64,000 nucleotides of DNA, from positions 1 through 64,000 of the forward strand of contig CAJVZH010000002.1 in the NCBI GenBank assembly GCA_913020715.1, written 5' to 3'. The position numbers and the translations under genes are program-made. The DNA comes from an uncultured Gammaproteobacteria bacterium (GTDB lineage: Bacteria; Pseudomonadota; Gammaproteobacteria; PS1; Pseudothioglobaceae). Shown in pieces: positions 7,095-54,863 of the stretch; the stretch's first letter is position 1, and every line of letters begins with the position of its first letter. Under the pieces are notes generated by a model, which worked only from the letters and a program-made list of their open reading frames with translations, was not told where the DNA came from and did no database searches.

Positions 7095-7100
7095 GTGATT

Positions 7101-34116: not shown

Positions 34117-34155
34117 TCCTGAAGTGTATATGCGGTGGTCATAAAGTCCTTTTCA

Positions 34156-35589: not shown

Positions 35590-35625
35590 GTGTACCTCTG
35601 TTTGTGTGCATCGCAGCCATGTCCT

Positions 35626-37800: not shown

Positions 37801-37842
37801 TATTTATTAACTCGTTATTAGTGTTATCCAGTCCTATGGGTG

Positions 37843-40026: not shown

Positions 40027-40355
40027 TAAGATTTGTCCTGTGTTACAAACTGCTTGTTAATTTTTTGTCAAAGGAGTGTCAAAATTGCCGACACTGTAAC
40101 CCCATGCCTTAATGACCATTCAGGCCTTTTCGGTATAAAAACATCCTAAAGTATGTTAGTATTCTACTATTATTACATACCATAGTCAATAGTATGTATA
40201 ACTTTTTGTTTTACTTCTTTTAGTAATTATCGTTAATGTACAATTGCAATCAAACTGTTCAAAAATGAAGAGCGTTGAATGTTTGTTTGGCTGCTGAAGT
40301 GCGAATAATTAACCGCTTTACGTGTATAAAGGCTTGTTAATTGGTTAGGCTTAAA
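40027..40355. promoter_or_regulatory. Divergent control region with ACATACT-type sites, ABC operon / permease-kinase operon
   Basis: 329 bp between two outward-facing transport operons, with no gene inside. Between 40141 and 40200 lie ACATCCT (40141), AGTATGT (40150), ACATACC (40175) and AGTATGT (40191). The first two make a 16-bp dyad with one mismatch and a two-base centre. The same 7-mer occurs repeatedly in the 47 kb control region, so both are probably bound by the same regulator. The remainder, 40201-40355, is AT-rich without clear promoter hexamers that I would defend. Confidence 0.6.
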
Positions 40356-41351
40356 ATGATGACAAAAACCCTGAAGATCTTATCTATATTGTTTATTAAA
40401 GTTGGCGTATTGCCTTGGTTTTTGGGCGTTGCGATTATGGTTTTTACTATTGGCAGCGATAATTTTTTAACAATAGACAACGTGTTAGGTGTTGTCAGAC
40501 ACTCAACCGACCTTGTTTTGGTCGCTATGGCGCAAATGATTGTCATGCTCACTGCGGGGCTGGATTTTTCTGTGGGCGTCGTGCTTGCAATGACCGCGGT
40601 TGTGGCATCGATGACAATGGTCACCCTTTGGTCTGGATTTGGAAGCGGCTGGGAGGCGATATTGATTGGTTGCCTGGTGGGTCTTTTTGTCAGTGCTTGT
40701 ATTGGTTTTGTTAACGGAGTTGGCGTAGCGTTTTTTCATGTACCACCCTTCATAATGACGCTTGGCATGTCATCCATTATTTTTGGCTTGGCCTTAACAA
40801 TTACGGGTGGTATACCTGTTTACGGCATGCCTGAGGCGTTTACCAATGTTGTTGGTTATGGACAAGCGTTTGGTTTGCCAGTTAGCGTTCTGATAACAAT
40901 CCCCTGTGTATTGTTGATGTATGTGTTTATCAACTGGACCACGATGGGGCGTTATTTGTATGCGATAGGTGGCAATATAAGGGCCGCCGAACTTTCCGGC
41001 ATTAATACGCGTTTTTACTTGGTCAGTGTCTATGTTATTTCTGCAGTGATCACCGGCATTGCGGCTTTATTAATTACCGCGCGACTTGAAAGTGGCGAGC
41101 CAAATATTGGCGCTAGCTATCCGCTACTGTCTATTGCAGCTTGTGCTATTGGAGGTGTGAGTTTGCGTGGAGGCGTGGGGAATCTTGGAAGTGTCGTGTT
41201 GGGTGCTTTCTTTATCATCTTAATTCAAAATGGCATGAATCTAATGAGAATTGGCTCCTATTTGCAGATGGTGGTTATCGGCACTCTTTTGATTATTGCC
41301 ATTGCAATTGAATACTTTCGCCAACAAATGCAGTTGAAAGTAAACCAATAA
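40356..41351 (+). CDS. CUT2/RbsC-type ABC permease of normal size
   Basis: 331 residues from ATG 40356 (a TTG five codons earlier is a weaker alternative, since only the ATG gives a conventional start ahead of the first helix). Eight to ten hydrophobic segments with family motifs MAQMIVMLTAGLDFSVGVV near 60, GFVNGVGVAFFHVPPFIMTLG near 125, AIGGNIRAAELSGIN near 205 and GGVSLRGGVGNLGS near 265. It probably works with the ATPase at 43502 and the binding protein at 45060, which are encoded on the other strand. The kinase gene follows after 78 bases on the same strand. Confidence 0.87.
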   Translation: MMTKTLKILSILFIKVGVLPWFLGVAIMVFTIGSDNFLTIDNVLGVVRHSTDLVLVAMAQMIVMLTAGLDFSVGVVLAMTAVVASMTMVTLWSGFGSGWEAILIGCLVGLFVSACIGFVNGVGVAFFHVPPFIMTLGMSSIIFGLALTITGGIPVYGMPEAFTNVVGYGQAFGLPVSVLITIPCVLLMYVFINWTTMGRYLYAIGGNIRAAELSGINTRFYLVSVYVISAVITGIAALLITARLESGEPNIGASYPLLSIAACAIGGVSLRGGVGNLGSVVLGAFFIILIQNGMNLMRIGSYLQMVVIGTLLIIAIAIEYFRQQMQLKVNQ

Positions 41352-41429
41352 TCCCTTGATAATCCATGCACTTATGAGTGTTAATAAATCCATTAAGGGC
41401 AATTGCTTGACAAGAGGGGTCATTTAAAT

Positions 41430-43466
41430 ATGAAAGCCTCAATTGTTAAAAACAACGTTTTTAATCGATTCTCACTTAACCAGAAAATTGCCGTATTGAT
41501 CGTTATTGAAGTGTTAGGGTTTTTTGCTGTAATGATGGTTGCATTTATGCAAATACAGAGTGTTGGTAACGAGACAAAACAAATGTCTTCCATCAATACG
41601 CCATTGTTCGAATCCATTAACAGTATTGATGAAAAAATCTTCAGTCAAACATTGAATGCTAAAACACTGGCCTTGATGAGCAGTCAAAGTGTTGAACAAA
41701 ACTATCATAAAAGAGTTTTCCTTGACGCCAAGTCGAAGTATTTGTCTGAGAGTGGAAAATTACAAAACAATATCGCCTCTGCAGAAGCGTTTATTCGCAA
41801 AAAAACCAACGATCCAGGCGGCAGTGACAGCATACTTTCGCTGCATAAGGAGGGCTTGCTTTCAAGGCTTTTTGAGCTAAGAAAAGCCAACCATAATTAC
41901 AATCAATTGGTGCTTAACCAACTGTTTGATCGAGTGCTCCCTGGACAGCCCTCGGCTGATATAGGCACACTTAGCGAGTTGAACGCCTCTGAGGCCCGGT
42001 TACTGGGAAGAGCATACGAGTTAAGAGCTGAGCTGGAAAAAATAAAGATTGATTCGGATAAGCGTGCTATTTATGTTGAGCGTATTGCGATTAGTTATGT
42101 TGTTTTGACATGCATTATTGTAGTGTTATTTATTATTGCAATGTTGCTACTAATTGTTAGGAGAAACATTTCAAAACCATTGCAATTGCTGACGGACAAC
42201 ATCAATAGATTTACCCCGCTTCAGATGGTTGAGGAGCTGGAATTTGAAAAAAATATTTTAAAACGCCAAGATGAGCTTGGAAGAATGGCACGCAGCTTCA
42301 ATAGGTTGAAGCACGATTTATGGGAGCAGGGCGAAGGCCTTCAAACCGCTATTAATGAGGCCAAAAGAGCCAATCATGCCAAGTCGGTTTTCTTAGCCTC
42401 AGCGAGTCATGATTTGCGCCAGCCATTGAATGCTATGCAAATGTATATTGCCGCTTTGCAAATAAAAGTAAGGGATGAGGGTGCACTCGAAATTATTAAA
42501 GACATAGACGCGGTTTCAGTTTCTACAGCAAGGCTTTTAAATGCCTTGCTTGACGTCTCTGAATTAGAGGTTGGTGCTATTAAGCCACACTTTGAAGATT
42601 TTGCAATACAAGATGTATTTCTCAGTGTCGAGCAGTCATTTTCACTCTTGGCGCATGAAAAAGGCCTGGAGTTTCGTGTTATTCCTTCGGCATTAGTTGT
42701 ACGTAGTGATCCCGCTTTACTAGAGCGCATCCTTGGTAATTTTATGTCCAATGCCATACGCTATACTGAGAGTGGGGGCGTATTGCTAGGTTGTCGGAGG
42801 CAGGGGAGTGATGTGTCAATCGAAGTTTGGGACAGCGGCTGCGGCATTCCCGAGCATCAGTTAAAACCCATTTTTGAAGATTTTTATCAAATTGAAAATA
42901 AAGAGCGTGACCGCGGAAAAGGCCTGGGTCTTGGGTTGGCTCTTTCCAGCCGATTGTCTAATTGCTTAGGCCATGGAATTGACGTTAAATCCACTGTTGA
43001 TTCTGGCTCTGGTTTTTCTGTTAGAGTTAAAAACATCGGCGTTGTTAATACAGTAAAGCCAACAGAGGCTTTGCAAACATTAACAACTTTATCCTCTGTT
43101 TCTATTCTTTTGATCGAAGATGATCTGGATGTTTTAAGGGCAACGCAGCAGCTTTTGGAGTCTTGGGGTTGTTCGGTGCATTCTGGGAGAAGCGAAGACG
43201 AAATAATGAAGCTAGTTAAAGGGCGTAAAGAATCGCCGCCTGACGTTATCTTGGCAGATAATCGTTTGCCTGGGGGTGTTAATGGCACGGAGGTCGCCGT
43301 GCGTGTTCAGCAATTTTTCGATATCGATATTCCAGCGGTTATTGTGACTGGCGATGTAGAGCAGAGCCATGTAAAAAGCATCACTGAAAAGGGTTTTCCG
43401 GTAATGTTAAAGCCAATACAGCCAGCAAAACTGAGAGCCATAATTTCGCATTTAAGCTCTTCTTAG
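41430..43466 (+). CDS. Hybrid sensor histidine kinase with HAMP and receiver domain
   Basis: 678 residues from ATG 41430, which has an AGAGGGG ribosome site ten bases upstream; an in-frame TTG at 41403 is less likely. Order: membrane helix 17-38, extracytoplasmic helical sensor about 40-214, membrane helix 215-238, HAMP about 239-300, phosphoacceptor His327 in SASHDLRQPLN, ATPase domain (NFMSNAIRY, DSGCGIPEH, GLGLGLAL), then a receiver with IEDD and phospho-Asp near 610 in LADNRLPGG and a conserved lysine in MLKPIQ. It should sense a signal in the periplasm, possibly through one of the binding proteins, and act on the NarL-type regulator at 46357. The layout resembles TorS-like systems, but pairing is inferred from proximity. 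Confidence 0.88.
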   Translation: MKASIVKNNVFNRFSLNQKIAVLIVIEVLGFFAVMMVAFMQIQSVGNETKQMSSINTPLFESINSIDEKIFSQTLNAKTLALMSSQSVEQNYHKRVFLDAKSKYLSESGKLQNNIASAEAFIRKKTNDPGGSDSILSLHKEGLLSRLFELRKANHNYNQLVLNQLFDRVLPGQPSADIGTLSELNASEARLLGRAYELRAELEKIKIDSDKRAIYVERIAISYVVLTCIIVVLFIIAMLLLIVRRNISKPLQLLTDNINRFTPLQMVEELEFEKNILKRQDELGRMARSFNRLKHDLWEQGEGLQTAINEAKRANHAKSVFLASASHDLRQPLNAMQMYIAALQIKVRDEGALEIIKDIDAVSVSTARLLNALLDVSELEVGAIKPHFEDFAIQDVFLSVEQSFSLLAHEKGLEFRVIPSALVVRSDPALLERILGNFMSNAIRYTESGGVLLGCRRQGSDVSIEVWDSGCGIPEHQLKPIFEDFYQIENKERDRGKGLGLGLALSSRLSNCLGHGIDVKSTVDSGSGFSVRVKNIGVVNTVKPTEALQTLTTLSSVSILLIEDDLDVLRATQQLLESWGCSVHSGRSEDEIMKLVKGRKESPPDVILADNRLPGGVNGTEVAVRVQQFFDIDIPAVIVTGDVEQSHVKSITEKGFPVMLKPIQPAKLRAIISHLSSS

Positions 43467-43501
43467 GTTTTATTGATATCGGGCGCAGTTAACAAAGTGC
43501 T

Positions 43502-45040
43502 TCAAGAGGCAAAGGTTTTGGCTTCTGAAAAGTGACTTTGTATTATTTTGTCTGTGGCCTCACCTTGACTTAGTTCGGCTTGTAGCTTTCCCTTATGAAT
43601 AACGTAGATTCGGTGCGATAAATTCACCAGCTCTGATAAGTCCGAAGAGATGAGTAAGACGGCACCGCCAGTTTCGCAGTAATCGCTGATGAATTTATAA
43701 ATTGAGGCGCGGGTACCAATATCAACACCAACTGTTGGCTCGTCTAGAATAAGAAGGTGGACGTCTCGCACAAGGCTTCTCGCAAGCATGACTTTTTGCT
43801 GGGTGCCACCGGACAGTTGCTTAATCTTGTTTTCAAGATCAAAGTTATTAAAGTTGAATCGACGGCTGATTTTGCTAACAATGTCCTTTTCTTTTTTACG
43901 GCCTAATAAGGGTCCACTTGAAAATTTTGACAACCCTAACGAAGGGAGGGAAATATTTTCGCGAATATTTTGTACCATAACGAGACCCTCGGCTTGTCGG
44001 TCGGGAGGAAGGTAGAGCATTCCTCTGTTGAGCATCGCGCGTGGCCTTATGTCGTTAATGTATTTTGAGTCGTCATAAACAATGTCGTCTAAATATGTGA
44101 TGGATCCTGATTCTATTTTTTTGAGGCCAAAACAAGCGCGGCCAATTGTGGATTTGCCCGAGCCCACGAGACCGGCAATACCCACAATTTCCCCTGCGCG
44201 CACATGAATTGACACATCCTTAACCGGCTTATGCAAAATATTTAGCCCCTTAATGTCAAGCAATGTCTTGCCTGGCCTGTGTTTTATTTTTGGGATAATA
44301 GAATTAATTTGGTGGCCGGTTGACAATTCAACCAGCTGATTTTCTTTGATGTCAGCCACTAGGCCTGTTTTGATGAGCTTACCATCTTGCAAAATGGTAA
44401 CCCGGTCACAAGTTTGGTATATTTCTTCAATTCGATGAGTAATGTAAATAATCCCAATCCCTTCATTTTTAAGCGCATTAATCATTGCAAAAAGATGCTC
44501 GGTTTCACTCTCGGCTAATGAGGCGGTCGGCTCATCTAGAATCATGATTGATGGCTTGGTATGAAAGGCTTTTGCAATTTCGACCATTTGTTGTTCTGCA
44601 TGAGACAGCGTGCTTACTTTTTGCTCTGGCTTAAGGGAGAATTCCAGTCGCTCTAAAGTGTCACAAGCCAATTGATGCAGTTTTCTTTTATTGAGAAATA
44701 AGCCGTCTGATATTTTGGCACCCAAAAATAAATTTTCTTCAATGGTAAGCTGAGGCACTAGTGCAAATTCTTGGAATACGACGCTGATACCCAGTTCTCG
44801 AGCGTTGTGAACGGAGTGAATTTTTATCTTCTCTTCGTTGATAAAAATAGTGCCAGACGTTGGCTGTATGTCGCCAGAGATGGTTTGGATTAAGGTAGAC
44901 TTTCCAGCGCCGTTTTGGCCAAAAATAGCGTGCACTTCACCAGGGTAAAGGTCAAAATTAATATCGCTTAACGCGTAACTGCCGAAAAATTGTTTGGAAA
45001 TTTTTTCGAGACGCAATAACGGCGGGATAGATTGTGGCAT
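43502..45040 (-). CDS. CUT2/RbsA-type ABC ATPase
   Basis: 512 residues, normal for a tandem ATPase importer subunit. First domain: GQNGAGKSTLIQ near 40, LSHAEQQMVEIAKAF near 140, IMILDEPTASLAES. Second domain: GLVGSGKSTIGR near 290, LSGGTQQKVMLARSL near 402, LLILDEPTVGVDIG. Both nucleotide sites look intact, unlike the 727-residue ATPase at 37843. It lies 19 bases after the binding-protein gene at 45060 and is convergent with the kinase gene. The likely membrane partner is the permease at 40356, which means this transporter's genes are split over both strands. Confidence 0.9.
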   Translation of the reverse strand: MPQSIPPLLRLEKISKQFFGSYALSDINFDLYPGEVHAIFGQNGAGKSTLIQTISGDIQPTSGTIFINEEKIKIHSVHNARELGISVVFQEFALVPQLTIEENLFLGAKISDGLFLNKRKLHQLACDTLERLEFSLKPEQKVSTLSHAEQQMVEIAKAFHTKPSIMILDEPTASLAESETEHLFAMINALKNEGIGIIYITHRIEEIYQTCDRVTILQDGKLIKTGLVADIKENQLVELSTGHQINSIIPKIKHRPGKTLLDIKGLNILHKPVKDVSIHVRAGEIVGIAGLVGSGKSTIGRACFGLKKIESGSITYLDDIVYDDSKYINDIRPRAMLNRGMLYLPPDRQAEGLVMVQNIRENISLPSLGLSKFSSGPLLGRKKEKDIVSKISRRFNFNNFDLENKIKQLSGGTQQKVMLARSLVRDVHLLILDEPTVGVDIGTRASIYKFISDYCETGGAVLLISSDLSELVNLSHRIYVIHKGKLQAELSQGEATDKIIQSHFSEAKTFAS

Positions 45041-45059
45041 GGTGTTTCTTTTATACTAA

Positions 45060-46238
45060 TTAATCTAGGGAGAAAATTGGTAGCCAGCCTTTTGGAGCTA
45101 GTGTTGTTGAGGGGTCAAAAGAATCATAACTCTCTGGCGTTATAAACAGTATTAGTTGTTGAATATGTTCAGTTAAAAGGCCGGCGTTATTAAACTCGGG
45201 ACGTCCGCCAGTGGCCATTCTTTTGCCCTCGAGCAGCCTAACTGCTTGGTCAATACCAACTTTTGCTTGCGAAATCATTTGATCTGAGGGCGCCATTGCA
45301 ATTAAGCCGCGCCTCATGTACATGTCGATTCCAGGCGTGTAGTAAGTTGCTACTAATTTAACTTGTTGTGTCAGGCCCTTCGCTCGAAGAGCGCCAACAG
45401 CCGCCTCAACGGTTGTGGCTGTGCCTACGATATAGTCAAACTCTGGACTTCCACCTGAGGATCGTGTTTGTAACGCCTCCTCGACTAGTTTCAACTGAAT
45501 GGCTTTGCCCGTATCACCCCAGTAAGTTTCTATAATGTTGATATTTTGGCCTTCTAGGGCACTTAAGCAGCCCTGATTGGAGGCAATCGACCAGCCTGCG
45601 CCCGGAGGGCCGGGAAACCAAACAATGTTTCTTTTGCGACCATCATCATGTTGGTCCACGACCCATTTGCATGAGGCGTAACCCATATTGACGAAGCTTT
45701 GCAAGGAATTGGCCTCAACCTTTGTATTGATTCCAGTAACAATGATAATTACAGGGATACCCATTGCGCGTATCACATCTATTTGCTGGGCGTTACCATT
45801 GCTGGAGATGGGCCCAATAACAAGAGCCTCGCCGCCATTAGCAATGCAGTCATCGACTTGATTTAGCTGTGTGTTGAGATTTGTGTAGCCACCCGCCTCG
45901 AAAAGAGTGATTTTTTGTCCAAGGCGCCTGCCTTCTGCAATGACGCCATAAGCCACACCCACCCAGTAGGAGTCTTTTAAATGAGGAAAAGAAACACATA
46001 TATGGTGCTTTTTATCCACCTCCGCCGGCATTAGGGGGGTGTAGGTGTCTAATGACAAATTGGCCAGAGAGTTGTTTGGGTCTAACCAGCAGGCAGGGTC
46101 ACCATCCGTACAAGAAAAATTGAAAACGTGAACGGGGGTCGACCAGTCAGTGTTTTCTTCAGCCTGTGCAGTTGTCAATACCAAGCTTGTCCATACTAAC
46201 AATGCCTGAATAAAACGAACACAAAGACTATGGTGCAT
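45060..46238 (-). CDS. Periplasmic binding protein, TorT/Peripla_BP_4-like
   Basis: 392 residues with a signal peptide (hydrophobic FIQALLVWTSLVLTTAQA, cut near 26). The mature part has the two-lobe LacI/periplasmic sugar-binding fold: ICVSFPHLKDSYWVGVAYGV near 83, ALVIGPISSNGN near 140, and WFPGPPGAGWSIASNQGC near 205. The wording GPPGAGW and the short N-terminal cysteine-containing segment (SCTDGDPACW) recall TorT, the periplasmic partner of the TMAO sensor TorS. It could therefore deliver ligand to the ABC permease, to the hybrid kinase, or both. It precedes the ATPase by 19 bases. Confidence 0.8.
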   Translation of the reverse strand: MHHSLCVRFIQALLVWTSLVLTTAQAEENTDWSTPVHVFNFSCTDGDPACWLDPNNSLANLSLDTYTPLMPAEVDKKHHICVSFPHLKDSYWVGVAYGVIAEGRRLGQKITLFEAGGYTNLNTQLNQVDDCIANGGEALVIGPISSNGNAQQIDVIRAMGIPVIIIVTGINTKVEANSLQSFVNMGYASCKWVVDQHDDGRKRNIVWFPGPPGAGWSIASNQGCLSALEGQNINIIETYWGDTGKAIQLKLVEEALQTRSSGGSPEFDYIVGTATTVEAAVGALRAKGLTQQVKLVATYYTPGIDMYMRRGLIAMAPSDQMISQAKVGIDQAVRLLEGKRMATGGRPEFNNAGLLTEHIQQLILFITPESYDSFDPSTTLAPKGWLPIFSLD

Positions 46239-46275
46239 ACTTTCCTTATATAGGGGTTACATATGATATTGAATT

Positions 46276-46320
46276 TTTGACAAAGAAATACCGAGGGCCC
46301 AACCAGGGTTATTTGTCAAT
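46276..46320. promoter_or_regulatory. Inverted repeat between binding-protein and regulator genes
   Basis: TTTGACAAA at 46276-46284 pairs with TTTGTCAA at 46312-46319 in the 118-bp gap between the regulator stop and the binding-protein start. It could end the regulator transcript or be an operator for the binding-protein/ATPase pair; no T-run follows on the minus strand, which weakens the terminator reading. Confidence 0.35.
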
Positions 46321-46356
46321 AAATCTACTATCTCTCTCTTTTAAATTGTTAAGGCG

Positions 46357-47055
46357 TTAGGAAGCGGCAGAGGCGTAATTTATTTTTTCCTGTAATCTGG
46401 AATATTTTGCAACGGCCTCGGTGCGATTCTTTACTTGAAATTTTTTAAAAATTGCTGAAACATGCATCTTGATTGTGGGGACTGTCAAACCAAGATCATC
46501 CGCAATGGCTTGGTTGGATTTTCCAAGCACAATTTGCCCAAGAACGTCTTTTTGTCTTTGTGTTAGTGAGTCAAGTGCGCCTTGTTCTGAAGATTGAATG
46601 CTGTCTAAAGGTTCACTTTGTTGGGGGCGCAAAATATGCGGAGGTACGTATATCCCCCCAGACAGTACAAGTTGAATGGCGCTGATGGTAATGTTAGGAG
46701 GTGAGGTTTTAGGTATGTAGCCCGCAGCTCCAGCGGCAATGCATCTTTGAATGGAGTTAAAGTCTTCTTTCACAGAGATAACAACAATCGGAATATCTGG
46801 AAATTGTTTGCATATGGCTTTAATGCTGTTGTCAGCATCCATGCCAGGCATCATTAGGTCAAGCAGTAAAAGGTCAATTGAGGGTGTCTCTGTTATGGTG
46901 TTAATGGTTTCATCAAAGCTGTTGGTTTGAAAGATAACAGCCTCTTTCACCGCCATTTTGGCTATCAGGGCCAAGCCACCTCTAACCAGGGCATGATCGT
47001 CAGCAATAACAATTGAATGTTTGACATTGCCATCTTTTGTAGTCAATTTTTCCAT
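46357..47055 (-). CDS. NarL/LuxR-type response regulator
   Basis: 232 residues. The receiver domain has the acidic pair IADDHALVRGGL near 17-28, phosphoacceptor Asp66 in LLLLDLMMPG, and the lysine in GYIPKTS near 113. The C-terminal GerE helix-turn-helix (LTQRQKDVLGQIVLG, SNQAIADDLGLTVPTIKMH) spans about 163-215. It probably receives phosphate from the hybrid kinase at 41430. It is divergent from the rhodopsin operon across a control region with at least five exact ACATACT/AGTATGT motifs; NarL-family regulators commonly bind 7-mer inverted repeats, so this protein is the natural candidate to bind them. A LuxR-type regulator is also reported beside DMFase genes on a Paracoccus plasmid. Confidence 0.9.
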   Translation of the reverse strand: MEKLTTKDGNVKHSIVIADDHALVRGGLALIAKMAVKEAVIFQTNSFDETINTITETPSIDLLLLDLMMPGMDADNSIKAICKQFPDIPIVVISVKEDFNSIQRCIAAGAAGYIPKTSPPNITISAIQLVLSGGIYVPPHILRPQQSEPLDSIQSSEQGALDSLTQRQKDVLGQIVLGKSNQAIADDLGLTVPTIKMHVSAIFKKFQVKNRTEAVAKYSRLQEKINYASAAS

Positions 47056-47355
47056 AATTTTTTTACTAATTGGACAAAGTGAATTGCTCTCTCTGGGTAA
47101 TTTGAATTACCCAGAGTAATGATTGTACAGTGTTTTTCGGAAAAAAAAAGACCGACAGTCTAATACATACTATAGAGTATGTTAAATAAAAATATTACAT
47201 ACTTTATCAAACTAACGTATGTATTGTGATATACTGAGAACATACTTTAGAATATTCTTAATCGCTATAGTTCGATTTTATGAGCAACAAGAAGGCTTGA
47301 AGTATGTATTGCGCATGCAATTACGCAGGTGCATAAATTAAAGGAGTGTTAAGTT
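47056..47355. promoter_or_regulatory. Control region of the rhodopsin/DMFase operon with repeated 7-mer sites and a sigma70-like promoter
   Basis: 300 bp, no gene. Exact copies: ACATACT at 47165, 47197 and 47240; AGTATGT at 47176 and 47301. Near copies: CGTATGT at 47216 and ATATACT at 47229. The pair at 47165-47182 makes an 18-bp dyad with a four-base centre. Successive sites start 11, 21, 19, 13 and 11 bases apart, roughly whole helical turns. A plus-strand promoter, TTGTGA at 47224-47229 and TAGAAT at 47248-47253 (18-bp spacer), lies among them, leaving a leader of about 95 nt. The layout looks like phased activator binding upstream of the -35. The chance expectation of exact 7-mers in 300 bp is about 0.04. 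Confidence 0.7.
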
Positions 47356-48522
47356 ATGAAGATAACAATGAGAAAAACTTTAGCCCTTTTGTTGTCAATC
47401 GGAATGTCATCGGCGGTCTTTGCAGGCGTAGATGAGTTACCGAGCGATATCAGGGATGCAGTTTACAACCCCAACATGATGGACAGTGCTCAGCCGCTTG
47501 ATGAAAGTGCGTTTAGAGACTGGAAAAGTGAGCGTAGTCCACCATGGACAATTGGTTATGCCAGTACTTATGCCGGCAATACGTGGCGTAAGGGTGCAAT
47601 GGAGAGACTAATGAACGAGATTAAACCGAAGTGGCAAGCACTTGGTTTACTCAATGACATTATTGTTACTCAGTCAAATCTGAAAGATTCGTTACAGATT
47701 CAACAGATTAGACAATTAGTTGACCAAGGTGTTGATGCTATCATTATTTGTTGTTCAAACCCAACTGCGCTGAACCAAGCGATTAAGTATGCGTTTGATA
47801 GAGGCGTGCCAGTATTTTCATTCACTGGATATACAACCTCGCCATTATCAGTTAGCTCATCAGTGAACTATCATCAGGCTGGCTATGAGGTTGGAACTTG
47901 GTTGGCCGAGGAGATCGATGGTAAAGGTAACGTTTTAGTTGTTGAAGGTATTCCTGGCTACTCAGCATCTGACTCTCAAAACCGAGGCGTTTTAGATGGC
48001 TTATCTCAATATCCTGATATTAAAGTTGTGGGTCAAATTGCCCATATGTGGACTTCTCAGGTCGGTCAAGCAGAAACACAGAAGTGGTTAGCTACTCATC
48101 CGGGTCAGCTGGATGGTGTTGCTGTACAGTCTTCGGGTGAAACCGGTGTATTGCAAGCCTTCTTACAGTCGGGCCGTGATGTACCGCCAATGTCTATCGG
48201 TGGTGAAATGGGTGCGCTATGTTACTGGCGTAACAATCCAGACTACATCAGTGGTGCGATTCAAACATGGCCTCCGGGCGATGATATCGAGCTAGGCTGG
48301 AACATCATGATGCGTACTTTACAAGGTCAAGGACCGAAGATTCAATCAGTCCTAGTACCTTCACAAGTTATTGACATCGATGATGTTAAAGCAATGATGG
48401 GTGAGGATTGTGATCGTAACTCTACCTCTTGGTATAACGTAGGTGTTGAAACTTGGGGTGGTTCAGACTACCTTGATAATTTCTTCTTAAGACCTGCTAA
48501 TCCAGAAGAGTATGTTCACTAA
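47356..48522 (+). CDS. Periplasmic substrate-binding protein of a CUT2-type ABC importer
   Basis: 388 residues. Signal peptide MKITMRKTLALLLSIGMSS, cut near AVFAG at 24. The mature protein is a Peripla_BP_4 fold: WTIGYASTYAGNTWRKGAME near 62, GVDAIIICCSNPTALNQAIKYA near 130, VFSFTGYTTSP, and GNVLVVEGIPGYSASDSQNRGVLDG near 193. A strong AAGGAG ribosome site lies eight bases ahead of the ATG. It is first in the rhodopsin operon and is followed by a stable stem-loop, the usual arrangement when a binding protein is made in excess over downstream genes. It is the likely partner of the ATPase/permease set at 34-40 kb. The ligand is unknown; a small amide is a context-based guess. Confidence 0.87.
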   Translation: MKITMRKTLALLLSIGMSSAVFAGVDELPSDIRDAVYNPNMMDSAQPLDESAFRDWKSERSPPWTIGYASTYAGNTWRKGAMERLMNEIKPKWQALGLLNDIIVTQSNLKDSLQIQQIRQLVDQGVDAIIICCSNPTALNQAIKYAFDRGVPVFSFTGYTTSPLSVSSSVNYHQAGYEVGTWLAEEIDGKGNVLVVEGIPGYSASDSQNRGVLDGLSQYPDIKVVGQIAHMWTSQVGQAETQKWLATHPGQLDGVAVQSSGETGVLQAFLQSGRDVPPMSIGGEMGALCYWRNNPDYISGAIQTWPPGDDIELGWNIMMRTLQGQGPKIQSVLVPSQVIDIDDVKAMMGEDCDRNSTSWYNVGVETWGGSDYLDNFFLRPANPEEYVH

Positions 48523-48541
48523 CCTGTAAGTAAGAATAACC

Positions 48542-48633
48542 ATATCGGGAGTTTGAAAGTTAAGATGAATAGTTCAATAATTAAGGTTTTAATTGTTATT
48601 GGTGCTCATTGTCTTACTTCAAGCTCCTGATAT
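48542..48633 (+). promoter_or_regulatory. Long imperfect stem-loop between binding protein and rhodopsin genes
   Basis: The arm at 48542-48565 (ATATCGGGAGTTTGAA then AGTTAAGA) pairs with 48612-48633 (reverse complement ATATCAGGAGCTTGAAG then TAAGA), about 20 pairs with two wobbles and a small bulge. The loop holds a smaller AT-rich hairpin around 48575-48602. No T-run follows, so it is more likely an mRNA-stabilising or partial-termination element that raises expression of the binding protein over the rhodopsin and enzyme genes. Confidence 0.6.
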
Positions 48634-48734
48634 CACAGGCCAACATTTGATACTCGTGATGAGCGAATATTGTCACTGTGAAGTAAATTAATAATTGAAT
48701 ACAGAAAAACTTAATAAAACAATCAAGGAATATT

Positions 48735-49436
48735 ATGAATAGCACATTACTACCCACAGACATCGTAGGCGGATCTTTCTGGCTAATGTCTATGGCAATG
48801 ATTGGTGCAGCAGTTTTCTTTCTACTTGAAAGAAACAAAGTTGATAGTAGGTGGCACACAACAATGACATTATTGGGTGTCGTAATGTTGGTATCGGCTA
48901 TTTTTTACTACTACATTACCAATATGTGGGTCTCCACTGGCACGGCGCCGATCATGCTGCGTTATGTCGACTGGATATTGTCTCACTCGATGCAAGTGGT
49001 GTTGTTTTATGTTGTTTTGACGGCGGTAACGCGAGTGTCATCGGCATTATTTTGGCGCTTACTAATAGGCTCTCTAGTCATGGTGATTGGTGAATTCCTC
49101 GGTGCGGCAGGATACATGAGCGCAACACTGGGCTTTATTATCGGTGTTATTGGTTGGCTTTACATTCTCGGCGAACTCTACATGGGTGAAGCGGGTCGAG
49201 CCAACAGCGAGAGCGGCAATGAAGCGACAAATACGGCCTTTAATGGCTTGCGACTGATTTTAACGATTGGTTGGGCAATCTACCCCTTGGGTTATTTTAT
49301 TAACAACCTAGGCGGCGGCGTAGATATTAACAGCATGAATATTATTTACAATTTAAGTGATTTTTTAAACAAAATCATATTCGGATTTGTCATTTATAGT
49401 GCGGCTACGAGTGACACAAAAGCAACAACTAACTAA
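48735..49436 (+). CDS. Proteorhodopsin-clade microbial rhodopsin with atypical helix C
   Basis: 233 residues, seven helices, no signal peptide. Retinal Schiff-base Lys213 lies in SDFLNKIIFG and counterion Asp209 four residues earlier. Helix C has Arg76 and proton-acceptor Asp79 (LRYVDW), as in proteorhodopsin, and Gln87 at the position that makes proteorhodopsin blue-absorbing. The rest of helix C differs: Ser83 for Thr, His84-Ser85 in place of Val-Pro, and Leu90 where the proton-donor Glu108 should be. Helix B has Tyr58 in place of His75; helix D carries an extra Glu120. Helix F has GWAIYPLGYF as usual. It may be a slow or donor-free proton pump or a sensor. It is flanked by a binding protein and a flotillin-like gene. 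Confidence 0.93.
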   Translation: MNSTLLPTDIVGGSFWLMSMAMIGAAVFFLLERNKVDSRWHTTMTLLGVVMLVSAIFYYYITNMWVSTGTAPIMLRYVDWILSHSMQVVLFYVVLTAVTRVSSALFWRLLIGSLVMVIGEFLGAAGYMSATLGFIIGVIGWLYILGELYMGEAGRANSESGNEATNTAFNGLRLILTIGWAIYPLGYFINNLGGGVDINSMNIIYNLSDFLNKIIFGFVIYSAATSDTKATTN

Positions 49437-49479
49437 TGAAACAACAAAAGAATTACCTATTTAATAAGGAGAAAGAATC

Positions 49480-51465
49480 ATGACCGGTGCAGACATTATT
49501 GCAACTATCATTCTGACAGCGCTTGCTATAGCTATCGTTGTTTATTTACTGCATTGGTTGTATCGCAGATCATCGAAAGAAGTGTCTTTTGTAAGAACGG
49601 GATTTCGCGGTGAAAAAGTGGTGCTCAGTGGCGGCGCATTCGTATTGCCTATTGTTCACAATATCACCACAGTCGGCATGAGGACTTTACGGATTGAAGT
49701 GAAGCGTGGCGGTGATAAATCATTTATTACCAAAAACCGAATGCGTGTTGAAATCGTGGCAGAGTTTTATGTTCGAGTTACGCCAGCAAAGGAGGCTGTC
49801 TCAATTGCAGCCGGCACACTAGGCAAGCGCACTCTAGAGCCTGAAAGTCTACGTGAATTAGTTCAAGGCCGCTTCGTGGATGCCTTGGGTATCGTTGCAG
49901 CGCAAATGACGATGGAAGAAATTCAAGAAAAGCGTGGTGAATACATTAAGTCGGTTAAAGGGTTGGTTGCGGATTCACTAACCTCAACAGGACTGGAATT
50001 AGAGGCGGTTTCATTAACTAGCGTGGACCAGGCAGGTTTAGAGGTGTTCAATCCTTCTAATGCCTTTGACGCCGAGGGTTTGACACAGCTCACAGAGCAG
50101 ATTGAGTCCGGGAAGAGGAAGCGAAACGACATCGAGCAAGATACCGCCATCAAGATTCGCGGCAAAAACTTAGAGGCTGAAAAAAAGGCCCTGGAAATTG
50201 ACAAAGAAAGAGAGTTTTCTCGCTTGATGCAAGAGCGAGAAATTGCTAAACAACGCGATATGGAAAAAGCCGAAATGGCGATGGAAAAAGCCAATCAAGA
50301 GCGTTTAGCGGAAGAGGCGCGAATCAGCGCCACTGAGGAGGTTGAAAAAGCGCGCATCTCCCAACAAGACACGATTGAGGTTGAGCGTTCGTTGCGAGAG
50401 CACGAGCTAACTCTCCAGATTGAAGAGAGAAAAAAGTTACGTAATGAAGTTGAAAGACAGACAGAGATTGACATTAAACAGAAAAATCTTGAAGCCGAAA
50501 TAAGAACACTAGAAATTGACAAAGAGAATGAGTTTGCTCGCTTAGCACAGGCTGAAGAAATTGCCATTCGTAGAGCCAAGCAAAAAGCAGATGTTGTCAA
50601 GGAGGAGTCAGAGCGATTCCAAGAGTCTGAAAAGGCACAAATAAAGGCGCAGGAAAATGTTAAGAAATTAAAAATAGAGCAACAGCGAGTAGTTGAAATA
50701 ACACGTATTGAGAATGAAGAAAAATCTCAAACGTCAGAAATCAAGAAACGCAAAGCGCTCGAATTAGAAGAGAAAGATCGTGAACTTGAGATTATAGCTA
50801 AAACCATGGAAGTCTTAAATGCAACAGAAAGCAAAGAGCAGGCTCGAGCACAGACAGTAACTGCACAGGAACAAGTATTTTCAGCGCAAGAGGTTGAAGT
50901 TGCTGAGCGTAAAAAGAAACTACAACTCATTCAAGCCGAACAAGAGAGTGGCAGCGAAGCCATTCAAATCACCACAATTGCAAGGGCGGAGAAAGAGGCC
51001 TCTCAAGAACGTGAGCAGGCAGAGCAATACACCACGTTGGCTAATAAGTTGCGTTATGAGGTTGATGCGGCTGGTCAATTGATGCTCAATGAGGCTGAAA
51101 ATATTCGAAGTGACGAAAGTCGTCAAAGCGATTTACGCATGGAGCTGGCGAGAAATCTTGATTCTATTATTCGTGAGTCGGTCAAACCGATGGAAAACAT
51201 TGATGATATTAAGATTTATGAACTTAACGGCATGCCAGGCTTTGGTGCGAATCAAGCCAATGGCGACTTAGTAGGCCCAGCGAATGGCGGTGGCGGAAGT
51301 CTTTCTGATAACGTCGTAAATTCGGCGCTACGTTACCGAGCACAAGTTCCTTTTGTTGATAACTTGCTTAACGAGATAGGCATGTCGCCGAATGAAATTG
51401 GCAACATCAAGAATATCTTAGGAAATTATGACAAAGGCAGTACCCCAGAAGCGGATGAAGCTTGA
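49480..51465 (+). CDS. Flotillin/YqiK-like membrane scaffold protein
   Basis: 661 residues. One N-terminal membrane helix (residues 5-26), then an SPFH/band-7 domain to about 200 (FVRTGFRGEKVVLSGGAF, RVEIVAEFYVRV, LVQGRFVDALGIVAAQMTMEEI), then a very long Glu/Lys/Arg coiled coil to about 560 and a Gly-rich C-terminus. The order and the RTG.GG.KVV.SGG start match flotillin/YqiK proteins. Within the coiled coil a segment of about 100 residues is repeated with a period of 106 (NLEAE at 230 and 336). A strong AAGGAG ribosome site precedes the ATG. Flotillins cluster membrane proteins in ordered domains; location directly after the rhodopsin gene suggests it organises the rhodopsin or the importer, which is inference. 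Confidence 0.88.
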   Translation: MTGADIIATIILTALAIAIVVYLLHWLYRRSSKEVSFVRTGFRGEKVVLSGGAFVLPIVHNITTVGMRTLRIEVKRGGDKSFITKNRMRVEIVAEFYVRVTPAKEAVSIAAGTLGKRTLEPESLRELVQGRFVDALGIVAAQMTMEEIQEKRGEYIKSVKGLVADSLTSTGLELEAVSLTSVDQAGLEVFNPSNAFDAEGLTQLTEQIESGKRKRNDIEQDTAIKIRGKNLEAEKKALEIDKEREFSRLMQEREIAKQRDMEKAEMAMEKANQERLAEEARISATEEVEKARISQQDTIEVERSLREHELTLQIEERKKLRNEVERQTEIDIKQKNLEAEIRTLEIDKENEFARLAQAEEIAIRRAKQKADVVKEESERFQESEKAQIKAQENVKKLKIEQQRVVEITRIENEEKSQTSEIKKRKALELEEKDRELEIIAKTMEVLNATESKEQARAQTVTAQEQVFSAQEVEVAERKKKLQLIQAEQESGSEAIQITTIARAEKEASQEREQAEQYTTLANKLRYEVDAAGQLMLNEAENIRSDESRQSDLRMELARNLDSIIRESVKPMENIDDIKIYELNGMPGFGANQANGDLVGPANGGGGSLSDNVVNSALRYRAQVPFVDNLLNEIGMSPNEIGNIKNILGNYDKGSTPEADEA

Positions 51466-51492
51466 ACTTTACTTAAAAATTAAGGAAACATT

Positions 51493-53856
51493 ATGTTAAG
51501 AATTACTGGTTACAGCGACAAATACTCAATTTGCCCTGGAGACAACATACAATTTTATATCAACTCAGAGAGTAGTGAGGTTTACGACGCTCAAATAGTC
51601 CGCTTAATTCACGGTGATACAAATCCAGAAGGGCCAGGATACAAAGAAGAAGAAATACAGGCGATTTGTAATAAGAGTTATCCAGGCAGAAATCAAAAAA
51701 TTCATGGCGGCTCATACATTATCGTCCCTCAGGACGAAAGACTTAATGTAGAAAGTTTTACTTTGCAATGTTATGTCTTTCCAACAACGCCTGAAAAAGG
51801 GCGTCAAGGGCTATTAACTAAGTGGGTAGAAGAAAGCAAAAGTGGTTTTGGATTATTCATTGATGAAAATAGCTGCCTGTCAGCCGAGATAGGCGACGGT
51901 AATGGCTTGGTGACGAAGCTTTCTAGTGACAAGCCAATGTTGCGTAAAGTGTGGTATCTTGCTGCGGTAAGTTACGATGCCCGTACCGGTAGAGTGACAT
52001 TGTATCAAGAGCCCGTGGTTACATCAACGAATGGTGGTCTTGGCATGGGGCTCCTGAATCCTGCTGAAGCAACAACTGCAGTCGTGGAGACAATCAATAG
52101 TATGCGCCCCGGCATCAACGGTGCTCCTTTCCTAATGGCTGCCAGCACATGGTCCGAAAGATCGGGTCGTAGTGTATTTGGTGCGCATTTCAAGGAAGCG
52201 CCAGAGCCTATTGAGCTTCCAGTGCAAGCACGAAATACCACATTTAACGGCAAAATAGACCGTCCAAGATTGTCCCGTCGAGCGTTATCCAAAGCAGAAA
52301 TTGAAGCTTTGGCGCGCGGCTATCAAGGCTGTCCTGCCGAATTGCGTAATGATGTCGTTGGAGCGTGGGATTTTCATGCCAATATCACCAATAATATCGC
52401 ATCAACCTTGATTGTGGACACCTCAACCTCTAGGCTTAACGGCTACATTATTAATTTGCCAGTGCGTGGCATGACTGGTTTCAACTGGACTGGAGATGAG
52501 ATTATTTATCACCATAAGCCGGAAGAGTACGGTGCCATTCATTTTCACGACGACGACATTGACGATGCGCGTTGGGACGTAGATTTTGAATACACCATTC
52601 CAGAAAATTTAAAAAGTGGAATTTATGCGGCACGACTACGTATTGGTGGCATTGATTCGCCGGATACGGAGGACTATATTCCTTTCGTTGTGCGTCCACC
52701 ACGAGGCAAAACCACTTCAAAATTGGCCTTTATTTTGCCAACCAACAGTTATTTAGCTTATTCTAACGACAACCTTGCGACGAACTGTGTGGTCGCTGAG
52801 TTATTGGCTGGCAAGGTGCCAGTGATGACTGCTGCAGACTTGTATCTAAACGAGCACAGAGAATACGGCTTATCAACGTATTCGCTACACTCTGATGGAA
52901 GTGGCGTCTGCTATTCGTCGCGCTTGAGACCTATCTTAAATATGCGCCCTAAGTATCGCCACTGGTTGTCACCATCACTTTGGCAGCTTAATGGCGATCT
53001 TCATCTTGTTGATTGGCTGGAAGAAAAAAACTTTGATTTTGACATTCATACCGATGAAGACTTGAATCGAGAGGGTGTTGCGTTACTGAATAAATATCAA
53101 ACGGTATTGACGGGAAGCCATCCTGAATACACCTCCGAAAAAATGTTTTCAGCGTACGAGAAGTACCAACAAGATGGTGGTCGTTGGATTTATTTGGGCG
53201 CTAATGGCTTTTATTGGTGCAGTGAATATCACCCAGACAACTCAAATATTATCGAGGTTAGAAAAGGTGAGGCGGGCACGAGGGCGTGGACCGCAAATCC
53301 TGGTGAATACAACAATGCTTTCGATGGTAAGTATGGCGGCATGTGGCGCGCAAGAGGGCGTATTCCCAGCAAGCTTTGTGGGCTAACTTTTACAGCGTAT
53401 GGTTTTGACGTATCTTCTTATTACGTGCGCGACAAAGACAGCGAGCGACCAGAAACGGCATGGATTATGGACGGTGTAGGCAACGGCGAAAGAATCGGTG
53501 ACTTCGGCTTGGTTGGCGGCGGTGCGGCTGGACTAGAGTTGGATCGCTATGACATTGAATTCGGTACTCCGCACGAAGCCTATTTATTGGCTCACTCTGA
53601 AGGTCATACGAATCTAATGCTGCAAGTAAACGAAGAGATTCACTTTTCTGTTCGTGGCTACCATGGTGGCGGAACAGAGAATCCTATGGTGCGTGCTGAC
53701 ATGATCTATTACAAAACTCCTAATAATGGGGCGCTGTTTGCGCCTGGCTCACTTTCATGGTGTGGCAGCTTGTCGCATAATAGTTACAACAACAATGTAT
53801 CACGCATTACAGAAAATGCGATTAGGGGCTTTCTTAAAGAAGAGCCATTACCTTAA
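51493..53856 (+). CDS. dmfA2: N,N-dimethylformamidase-type large (beta) subunit
   Basis: 787 residues, close to DMFase large subunits (about 760). Residues about 85-270 look like a laminin-G/concanavalin-like domain (FTLQCYVFPTTPEKGRQG); the second half is the catalytic domain. Paracoccus DMFase has one iron held by two tyrosines and a glutamate; the matching regions are present here: PTNSYLAYSN near 416-425, STYSLHSDGSGVCYSS near 461-476, and GSHPEYTS near 541-548 with Glu545. DMFase hydrolyses dimethylformamide to dimethylamine and formate. The same motifs occur in uncharacterised amidases, so the natural substrate may be another N-substituted amide. Two small-subunit-like genes follow. No signal peptide, so it is cytoplasmic and needs an importer. 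Confidence 0.82.
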   Translation: MLRITGYSDKYSICPGDNIQFYINSESSEVYDAQIVRLIHGDTNPEGPGYKEEEIQAICNKSYPGRNQKIHGGSYIIVPQDERLNVESFTLQCYVFPTTPEKGRQGLLTKWVEESKSGFGLFIDENSCLSAEIGDGNGLVTKLSSDKPMLRKVWYLAAVSYDARTGRVTLYQEPVVTSTNGGLGMGLLNPAEATTAVVETINSMRPGINGAPFLMAASTWSERSGRSVFGAHFKEAPEPIELPVQARNTTFNGKIDRPRLSRRALSKAEIEALARGYQGCPAELRNDVVGAWDFHANITNNIASTLIVDTSTSRLNGYIINLPVRGMTGFNWTGDEIIYHHKPEEYGAIHFHDDDIDDARWDVDFEYTIPENLKSGIYAARLRIGGIDSPDTEDYIPFVVRPPRGKTTSKLAFILPTNSYLAYSNDNLATNCVVAELLAGKVPVMTAADLYLNEHREYGLSTYSLHSDGSGVCYSSRLRPILNMRPKYRHWLSPSLWQLNGDLHLVDWLEEKNFDFDIHTDEDLNREGVALLNKYQTVLTGSHPEYTSEKMFSAYEKYQQDGGRWIYLGANGFYWCSEYHPDNSNIIEVRKGEAGTRAWTANPGEYNNAFDGKYGGMWRARGRIPSKLCGLTFTAYGFDVSSYYVRDKDSERPETAWIMDGVGNGERIGDFGLVGGGAAGLELDRYDIEFGTPHEAYLLAHSEGHTNLMLQVNEEIHFSVRGYHGGGTENPMVRADMIYYKTPNNGALFAPGSLSWCGSLSHNSYNNNVSRITENAIRGFLKEEPLP

Positions 53857-53878
53857 CCACTAAATAGAGGCGCTAATC

Positions 53879-54247
53879 ATGACTACTAATACACAACAAC
53901 AAATGATGGATCCACCCGCAGGAAAGTCAGTTCTTGGATCTAGCAATGAGCCCCCCAATGATTTGGAAAAAAACCTAACAAGGCCTCTTGATGAAGACAA
54001 AGTTGACGAACTAGGGAAATGTTTATTTACTTTAAACAATAGGCGTTACGGCCCAATTGCGGGGGCTTATGTGGTGGTTAGCATAGTAGAAGGAAAAGAA
54101 TGGTGTGTTGGCCAGCTAAATGCGGATCGATCTAGGCCGATAATTTTGTTTGAAGACAAGATTTTTAATTCGCCAGAGTTGGCGCAAATTGAAGCGCAAA
54201 AAATAAAAGAAAAGCGCGGTGAGTCGACACCGTGTCGTAATCATTGA
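53879..54247 (+). CDS. DMFase small-subunit-like protein, divergent copy
   Basis: 122 residues. The N-terminal 40 are polar and probably flexible (QQQMMDPPAGKSVLG). From about 48 on it aligns with the next gene's product: RRYGPIAGAYVVVSIVEGKEW matches RRHPMAGKYVSICVRMFEEY (AGxYV, then an aromatic/acidic EW/EY), then PIILFEDKIFNSPELAQ matches PVKIFEEVYSSEEAC, and both end in a basic helix. So it appears to be a second, more divergent alpha-type subunit. GAGG ribosome site 10 bases before ATG; 22 bases after the large subunit. It may bind the large subunit as an alternative or extra partner. Not previously familiar to me. Confidence 0.65.
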   Translation: MTTNTQQQMMDPPAGKSVLGSSNEPPNDLEKNLTRPLDEDKVDELGKCLFTLNNRRYGPIAGAYVVVSIVEGKEWCVGQLNADRSRPIILFEDKIFNSPELAQIEAQKIKEKRGESTPCRNH

Positions 54248-54267
54248 TCAAAAATGGAGAATAAATT

Positions 54268-54681
54268 ATGTTAGAGATTGGTAAGGCTAAGGGTGTAATC
54301 GCGAATACGGCCTACACTGAAACGGATGACCATATGACAAGAACCTATGTCATGCCAATATTGTTCGATGACGAGTCTCGTCGTCGAGTATTGGCTGAAC
54401 ATAGGAACAACCCCATTGGGACGGCGCCAAAAAATGGCCGCTCCGCAGTGGAGCATAGTCAAGAACTTAGGACTATTTTAGACAAAATGCGCAGACACCC
54501 AATGGCTGGAAAGTACGTCAGTATATGTGTGCGCATGTTTGAAGAATATAAGATAGGAATTGCCTCTGGTGTGCGCGGCGCACCAGTAAAAATATTTGAA
54601 GAGGTCTACTCTTCAGAAGAGGCTTGTGAGCATGCGATTTTCTTGAAGCGCGTCTCAGATTTGATGGAGCATTATGGTTAA
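54268..54681 (+). CDS. dmfA1: DMFase-type small (alpha) subunit
   Basis: 137 residues, the size of DmfA1 (about 130). Landmarks: FDDESRRRVLAEHRNNPIG near 31-50, RRHPMAGKYVSI near 75, EEYKIGIASGVRG near 93, and FEEVYSSEEACEHAIFLKR near 110, the last resembling the EEEA.HAVFLRR end of known small subunits. In characterised DMFase the small helical subunit packs on the large one in an (alpha-beta)2 arrangement. Here it lies after the large subunit, whereas the Paracoccus order is small-large. GGAG ribosome site nine bases ahead of the ATG. It is the last gene of the operon; a terminator follows 37 bases later. Confidence 0.75.
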   Translation: MLEIGKAKGVIANTAYTETDDHMTRTYVMPILFDDESRRRVLAEHRNNPIGTAPKNGRSAVEHSQELRTILDKMRRHPMAGKYVSICVRMFEEYKIGIASGVRGAPVKIFEEVYSSEEACEHAIFLKRVSDLMEHYG

Positions 54682-54718
54682 CAATATTTCATCATTTATT
54701 TAATCGTCGCCAGACAAT

Positions 54719-54774
54719 ATGGTCAACCGCCTCTCTTACTCTCCTTTATAGTTGGTTGGCCATTTTTGTTTTTT
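54719..54774 (+). terminator. Rho-independent terminator of the rhodopsin/DMFase operon
   Basis: ATGGTCAACC at 54719-54728 pairs over ten bases (one G-T wobble) with GGTTGGCCAT at 54754-54763 and is followed directly by TTTTGTTTTTT to 54774. The loop is 25 nt. Placed 37 bases after the last coding stop and pointing with the operon, it is the clearest terminator in the window. Confidence 0.85.
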
Positions 54775-54863
54775 AACGATATACAATCTTTATTACCCCC
54801 CAGCAAAACCCTAGCACTAATTTAAAAACGCACTCTCGAAACACCCTTACCTAAATCCCCTAG

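Follow-up and report, generated by a model that had tools for sequence, protein, structure and literature searches.

What brings a microbial rhodopsin, a flotillin and an amide-cleaving enzyme together in one putative operon of a marine bacterium? The question is raised by six genes at 47356–54681 of a 64,000-nucleotide stretch of DNA (the window; contig CAJVZH010000002.1 of assembly GCA_913020715.1, genome G000 in our set) from an uncultured SUP05-type gammaproteobacterium of the Pseudothioglobaceae. The initial annotation had drawn six open reading frames here on the plus strand, and all six were confirmed with the coordinates given to them: a periplasmic binding protein (PBP; Peripla_BP_4, PF13407, 129 bits) at 47356–48522, a flotillin-associated rhodopsin (FAR; PF01036, 114 bits) at 48735–49436, a flotillin at 49480–51465, the large subunit of an N,N-dimethylformamidase (DMFase)-type amidohydrolase with DMFA2_C and LamG domains at 51493–53856, and two small proteins without a Pfam match, S1 (53879–54247) and S2 (54268–54681). 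The flotillin passes the cut-offs of its SPFH (Band_7, PF01145) and Flot (PF15975) domains, although it misses that of the FloT equivalog. The functional unit exceeds these six genes and extends over about 32167–54681, linked by an operator motif common to its two halves, and the six would be the 3' end of a FAR cluster. We lean slightly towards the view that such clusters encode a tag-directed, flotillin-organised assembly for the uptake and degradation of amides or lactams, in which the rhodopsin would carry no retinal.

The initial annotation knew of no described system of this kind. A FAR cluster that includes DMFase was published in 2023, when Haro-Moreno et al. reported it in SAR11, HIMB59 and Pseudothioglobus. 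Among its genes they list flotillin, N,N-dimethylformamidase, a sodium symporter and an inner-membrane translocator, to which Pseudothioglobus adds a LuxR regulator and hybrid kinase (PMC10308929). The rhodopsin-flotillin-DMFase triple, already in print, was accordingly rejected as a novelty. The window shares with the published cluster the rhodopsin clade, the adjacent flotillin, the DMFase, the Na+ symporter and the inner-membrane translocators, and with its Pseudothioglobus form the LuxR regulator and hybrid kinase; the best PDB match of the window rhodopsin is 9r21, a "flotillin-associated rhodopsin" (9r21_A, 434 bits, 84% identity). It differs in that its host lacks proteorhodopsin and the Blh protein, whereas proteorhodopsin is said to accompany FAR always (PMC10308929). 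Added here are a fusion of the importer ATPase to a repeat domain, a second DMFase-type small protein, a shared C-terminal tag, a shared operator and, in relatives, caprolactamase. The main text of the 2023 paper is silent on C-terminal features, repeats and caprolactam (PMC10308929), and the shared C-terminal peptide and the ATPase-repeat fusion are apparently undescribed.

A scan of GTDB genomes gave 80 FAR loci outside the window (main clade n = 81 with the window included), spanning SUP05, one Chromatiales, one Hyphomicrobiales, one unclassified gammaproteobacterial metagenome-assembled genome (MAG), HIMB59-type alphaproteobacteria and SAR11, the last two labels being our own assignment. 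The flotillin gene, which in the window lies directly downstream of the rhodopsin gene after a gap of 43 nt, adjoins it in 80/80 loci. DMFase, S1 and S2 follow downstream in all 60 loci that are long enough and bear the retinal lysine, and a Na+ symporter homologue does so in 57 of the 60 long loci. The linkage of rhodopsin, flotillin and DMFase is far above chance. The initial annotation had staked its operon on conservation of the neighbourhood in relatives, and these counts decide that point firmly in its favour.

The PBP serves an importer whose other parts lie upstream on the minus strand: an SSS Na+:solute symporter at 32167–34116 (PF00474, 87 bits), the RbsC-type permeases Perm3 at 34156–35589 (PF02653, 97 bits) and Perm2 at 35626–37800 (a long form of 724 residues, PF02653), and the ATPase ABC2 at 37843–40026 (PF00005 twice). 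Rhodopsin distances correlate with those of the flotillin (0.98), the binding protein (0.99), Perm2 (0.99), Perm3 (0.985) and the DMFase (0.92). Perm2 was found in all six lineages, the Perm3 gene immediately precedes the rhodopsin gene in the large-genome gammaproteobacteria, the Hyphomicrobiales and the HIMB59-type loci, and the window PBP is 75–77% identical to those of the large-genome gammaproteobacteria. In SAR11 loci the binding protein, ATPase and permeases lie further downstream, together with PxpA and a biotin carboxylase, while SUP05 keeps only importer, FAR, flotillin, symporter and DMFase. Two clusters carry a FAR whose retinal lysine has been replaced, by Leu in G266 (3.0 Mb) and by Arg in G564 (3.8 Mb, from another class), the latter being the one further case taken up from a search of 399 genomes for lysine-less FAR clusters. 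Both keep the binding protein, ATPase, Perm2, Perm3, rhodopsin and flotillin, along with an SCP2-like protein, an alpha/beta hydrolase and a distant symporter (30–32%). Because these two clusters keep them without a DMFase, the universal core shared by all six lineages comprises a sugar-type ABC importer, a Na+ symporter, FAR and flotillin. DMFase as a core partner was rejected on this ground and on that of genome G213, where an S2-DMFase-S1 trio was found with no rhodopsin, flotillin or importer genes detected nearby.

The genes could instead be neighbours through one travelling genomic island, with rhodopsin, flotillin and DMFase doing unrelated jobs; the sporadic occurrence of the cluster across classes would fit, as would the lone trio of G213 and the FAR-flotillin pairs without DMFase in G266 and G564. 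Importer, FAR and flotillin nevertheless stay joined over very large divergence despite rearranged surroundings, and the repeats fused to the ATPase, the shared operator and a tag that recurs on several unrelated proteins also speak against an island, which we regard as improbable. Two different FAR clusters (L037 and L103) occur in the Caspian MAG casp150-mb.165, as a chimera or a true duplicate. For the habitats of the Chromatiales Ww634 and the Hyphomicrobiales OFTM302, no paper was found.

We examined the rhodopsin for its capacity to hold retinal. Pocket position 84 is Val in 9/9 proteorhodopsin-like proteins, His in 7/7 FARs of SUP05 and the large-genome bacteria, and Phe in 74/74 alphaproteobacterial FARs; further bulky changes are found at 116, 120 or 180/184 in every lineage. 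The window protein (D79, S83, H84, L90, E120, K213) has His84 and Glu120 in place of the Val and Gly that mark an open proteorhodopsin pocket, and combines these clashing residues with the retained lysine in the manner of the FAR clade. The proton-donor Glu of the D-T-E motif, present in 9/9 proteorhodopsin-like proteins, is Leu90 in the window and Leu, Ile, Val or Thr across FARs. PDB entry 9r23 differs from the 9r21 protein by two substitutions only, H84V and E120G, so structural biologists have singled out the same two pocket residues. A 2025 report is said to describe absent retinal binding in FARs.

We also searched the host genomes with profiles, on which all gene absences given here for the window genome rest. 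That genome (94.7% complete) has one PF01036 match and no second rhodopsin, and no match to Blh (PF15461), which was matched in the proteorhodopsin genomes G287, G255 and G142. The same searches returned no other rhodopsin and no Blh in G214 (95% complete), G361 (92%) and the Hyphomicrobiales genome. A synteny comparison for an empty proteorhodopsin site, based on the SUP05 genome G369, gave no usable anchor, the gene flanking that site having only 25–32% homologues in the window genome. These absences bear on the hypothesis of Haro-Moreno et al. that FAR helps a true proteorhodopsin, through mixed complexes in flotillin rafts and better use of dim light (PMC10308929). Proteorhodopsin was present in 13 of the SAR11, HIMB59 and SUP05 FAR genomes checked, 12 of these 13 with Blh (Fisher p = 2e-5 for the association, uncorrected for relatedness or for incompleteness of single-amplified genomes), and FARs come mainly from the lower photic zone in metagenomes (PMC10308929), both as a helper would have it. 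Against it stand the SUP05-type window genome and three large genomes with FAR and neither another rhodopsin nor Blh, the tracking of rhodopsin distances with importer and flotillin, and one FAR in a MAG (G361, CSMAG_266) whose name is used in a cold-seep sediment catalogue, a link by name only. Going by these four assemblies, and contrary to the published statement, proteorhodopsin does not always accompany FAR, and the helper hypothesis derived from that statement is not generally valid either. This removes the foremost idea in print as an overall explanation, and we consider it quite unlikely. In a SUP05 MAG that also has FAR, a proteorhodopsin is read in two overlapping frames (L184, G371:C1:354002-354659), from a frameshift or an assembly error.

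FAR might still be a light sensor or pump using retinal made by other organisms, and Lys213 with Asp79 and Asp209 is indeed kept in nearly all main-clade FARs. This sits poorly with bulky residues at 84 and at 116, 120 or 180/184 in every lineage, with the replaced proton donor and with the lysine lost in two clusters; a DTT-type FAR, moreover, bound no retinal in E. coli according to the citation in PMC10308929. Scavenged retinal is the least probable of the explanations that we considered. The initial annotation had proposed that the rhodopsin supplies light-driven energy or a light signal, and this was rejected on the blocked pocket, the lack of Blh or another rhodopsin in the genome and the loss of the lysine in two related clusters. 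We infer that FAR is probably retinal-free in the cell and makes no use of light.

The amidase was compared with Paracoccus DmfA1A2 (6lvb; PMC7686228). It aligns with 6lvb_A over its whole length (651 bits) and keeps the iron ligands Y423, Y463 and E545 together with H543, N571, E682 and F718, that is, the 2-Tyr-1-Glu iron site and the catalytic His, Asn and Glu (His519, Asn547 and Glu657 in Paracoccus numbering, with Phe693) of the reference enzyme (PMC7686228). Across FAR-type DMFases, Y399, Y440, H519, E521, E657 and F693 (Paracoccus numbering) are kept in 68/68. S2 is the small subunit: it matches 6lvb_B at E = 2e-4 as a single sequence and at E = 7.6e-14 as a profile, and its predicted fold matches 6lvv_B in Foldseek (E = 9e-7, TM 0.79). 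S1, a distant paralogue of S2 by hhalign (95.6% over 50 columns) and conserved beside the DMFase, was rejected as a structural twin of the small subunit, since a fold search placed 6lvb_B only at rank 16 (E = 0.84) and its profile match to S2 alone stands. The lone trio in G213 means that both small genes belong to the DMFase. Unlike the Paracoccus enzyme, the window enzyme is accompanied by this extra small protein, most of its FAR-type homologues have Asp at 547, and its activity on N,N-dimethylformamide is a prediction. A DMFase with small subunit also lies beside a urease operon and an ABC importer of branched-chain-amino-acid/amide type in a complete 2.4 Mb genome (L178, G044:C1), where a response regulator is 51% identical to that of the window.

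Lineages outside SUP05 add enzymes that open cyclic amides. The Chromatiales, Hyphomicrobiales and CSMAG clusters have hydantoinase-type genes, of which the Chromatiales CapA (1222 bits, cut-off 1000) and the Hyphomicrobiales CapB (1073 bits, cut-off 1000) pass the equivalog models of caprolactamase, as known from Pseudomonas jessenii CapAB (PMC8453981). HIMB59-type and SAR11 clusters have PxpA and biotin carboxylase, joined in SAR11 by a PxpC-type CT_A_B protein. Both CapAB and PxpABC open lactams in an ATP-dependent manner but are unrelated to each other (PMC8453981), and because two unrelated solutions for the same step occur, the gene content of the lineages that bear them appears to point to a lactam or cyclic amide as substrate. 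The FAR-cluster CapB differs from that of P. jessenii by an extra C-terminal extension bearing the shared tag. In the window genome, CapA (nearest homologue 27%) and the alpha/beta hydrolase were not found, and the host thus has no CapAB of its own. The part of the initial annotation that foresaw solute uptake and amide hydrolysis is supported, since the ABC importer and Na+ symporter are co-inherited with a DMFase whose iron site is intact, and relatives add caprolactamase or 5-oxoprolinase genes.

A hint of a physical assembly comes from a C-terminal peptide, approximately [KR][IV][VI][DE][FYS][DE]-x(10-25)-[IM]K[IV]x[YF]F[DEN], that is common to the importer ATPase, a repeat protein and CapB of FAR clusters, the HIMB59 biotin carboxylase and the SAR11 PxpC-type protein (loci L021, L022, L023, L032 and L195 and the HIMB59-type loci). 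The first tail and repeat model was post hoc, and a leave-family-out test is the independent part. A profile from ATPase tails alone matches CapB (E = 3e-8) and the repeat proteins (2e-5), and one from the repeat proteins matches CapB, the PxpC-type protein, the ATPase and the biotin carboxylase, whereas among 3539 other C-termini there were 0 matches at E <= 0.01 in any of four such tests. CapB proteins outside FAR clusters, 73–75% identical, stop short of the tagged extension. The repeat protein has four copies of Y[ST]xxDxxxFxKL, at a spacing of about 38 residues in free proteins (L021 12528-13139; L195 8261-8776), and no Pfam match; where separate, its gene directly follows the ATPase gene. 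The ATPase of the window, like that of two other SUP05 genomes, has no tail but four fused repeats in its stead, and a profile built from the free repeat proteins detects each of the four copies in the C-terminal domain of window ABC2 (E = 1.6e-10).

A tail that moves between unrelated proteins, and a fusion in its place, usually mark a physical assembly, and on both grounds the tagged proteins may well be brought together. The arrangement would work like the peptides for encapsulation or docking in bacterial microcompartments and other metabolons, which are likewise short conserved C-terminal peptides after a variable linker on unrelated proteins of one cluster; unlike microcompartments, the FAR clusters showed no shell genes. 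The shared tail sequence is not known to be related to such peptides.

In the explanation that we favour, the binding protein, the ABC2 ATPase and Perm2/Perm3 would import a small amide- or lactam-type nutrient with help from the Na+ symporter, the flotillin, plausibly a membrane organiser, would gather the importer into a membrane microdomain, and the rhodopsin would be a retinal-free seven-helix component of the assembly and not a device for light. In the cytoplasm, the iron DMFase together with its small subunit or subunits would hydrolyse an amide bond. Outside SUP05 the shared peptide would join ATPase, four-repeat protein and lactam-opening enzyme; in SUP05 the repeat protein would be fused to the ATPase in place of the peptide. 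At the level of sequence the case is carried by gene content, conservation, co-inheritance, the blocked pocket, the absence of Blh and proteorhodopsin from the genome assembly, the shared peptide, the fusion and the operator motif, from which we infer the substrate class. Tentatively, and with the chances somewhat against it, we suggest a more specific form, a metabolon in which the peptide on CapB, biotin carboxylase, PxpC-type protein, ATPase and repeat scaffold docks to the flotillin microdomain and the rhodopsin has been recycled as a light-independent importer subunit. Of the initial interpretation as a whole, uptake and amide hydrolysis survive, and the role of light and the lack of a described system do not.

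Several observations weigh against the favoured explanation. Lys213 is kept in 81/81 main-clade FARs despite the blocked pocket, and the abundance of FAR in the lower photic zone (PMC10308929) would suit a light role. Three of the proteorhodopsin-free genomes are MAGs, and genome incompleteness could hide a proteorhodopsin. The DMFase, not found in the clusters of G266 and G564 that have the lysine-less FARs, falls outside the universal core. Finally, N547, essential in Paracoccus DMFase (PMC7686228), is Asn only in four SUP05-type enzymes (N571 in the window) and Asp in the other 64/68, and for this reason the chemistry of the Asp-bearing enzymes may differ. The function of FAR, carried by SAR11, HIMB59 and SUP05 relatives, has been an open question since 2023; the tail peptide, the repeats fused to the ATPase and the enzymes that open lactams now provide concrete, testable ideas about it. 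If the explanation is true, a rhodopsin has lost light and joined a nutrient importer. The more specific metabolon would be a membrane-bound assembly for processing nutrients of a kind new for bacteria, present in some of the most abundant ones in the sea.

Control of the window cluster appears to be shared between its two halves. The motif WACATACTWTA (up to one mismatch) has 10 matches in the window against 4.4 expected, and 9/10 fall within two control regions: three in the divergent region 40027–40340, which includes the palindrome ACATACYATAGTCAATAGTATGT (found in L028, L030 and the window), and six in 47056–47355, whose TACATACT blocks are kept in four SUP05-type genomes or loci. Because operator motif and conserved blocks are shared, the halves 32167–40026 and 47356–54681 are probably one regulon. 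Between them (40341–47055) lie a second importer, a hybrid kinase and a response regulator: the RbsC-type permease Perm1 at 40341–41351 (plus strand; PF02653, 112 bits), a NahK/ErcS-like hybrid sensor histidine kinase at 41403–43466 (plus; HAMP, HisKA, HATPase_c and Response_reg; best model NF041832, below cut-off), the sugar-type ATPase ABC1 at 43502–45040 (minus; PF00005 twice), a TorT-like periplasmic binding protein at 45060–46238 (minus; NF008185, 286 bits against a cut-off of 200; TIGR02955 below cut-off) and a LuxR/NarL-type response regulator with Response_reg and GerE domains at 46357–47055 (minus). The two-component system would govern both transcription units through the shared operator, with the LuxR-type regulator as the presumed binder of the motif. 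The same genes allow a different role for FAR, that of a retinal-free chemosensor that detects the solute, imported or in the periplasm, and passes the signal on to hybrid kinase and LuxR regulator; TorT-like protein, kinase and regulator do occur together in SUP05-type clusters, and the operator motif joins both units. The response regulator is, however, restricted to SUP05-type clusters and the kinase to these and one large-genome cluster, while FAR and flotillin always stay, and a suitable sensor partner already exists in the TorT-like protein, so that we think a chemosensor unlikely.

The terminator that the initial annotation had placed near 54719 is credible, as a 67-nt fold at 54712–54778 (plus strand; -17.9 kcal/mol, z = -4.2) followed by the T-rich tail TTTTTGTTTTTT; with its 25-nt loop it escaped a simple terminator scan. 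A single transcript for the six genes is putative: the 212-nt spacer between the PBP and rhodopsin genes (48523–48734, plus strand) contains a strong hairpin (-41 kcal/mol, z = -3.8) without a T run and a promoter-like site, and its sequence is poorly conserved among relatives. Elsewhere in the window, on the minus strand at 4677–8663, a dimethylglycine-dehydrogenase-like gene stands next to an MttB-like gene, a possible sign of methylated-amine or betaine use. The latter, a trimethylamine/betaine methyltransferase-like gene at 7101–8663 that is open under the standard code, contains at 7523–7622 (minus strand) a match to the Rfam family PYLIS_3, the mttB pyrrolysine insertion element (47.5 bits, gathering threshold 38).

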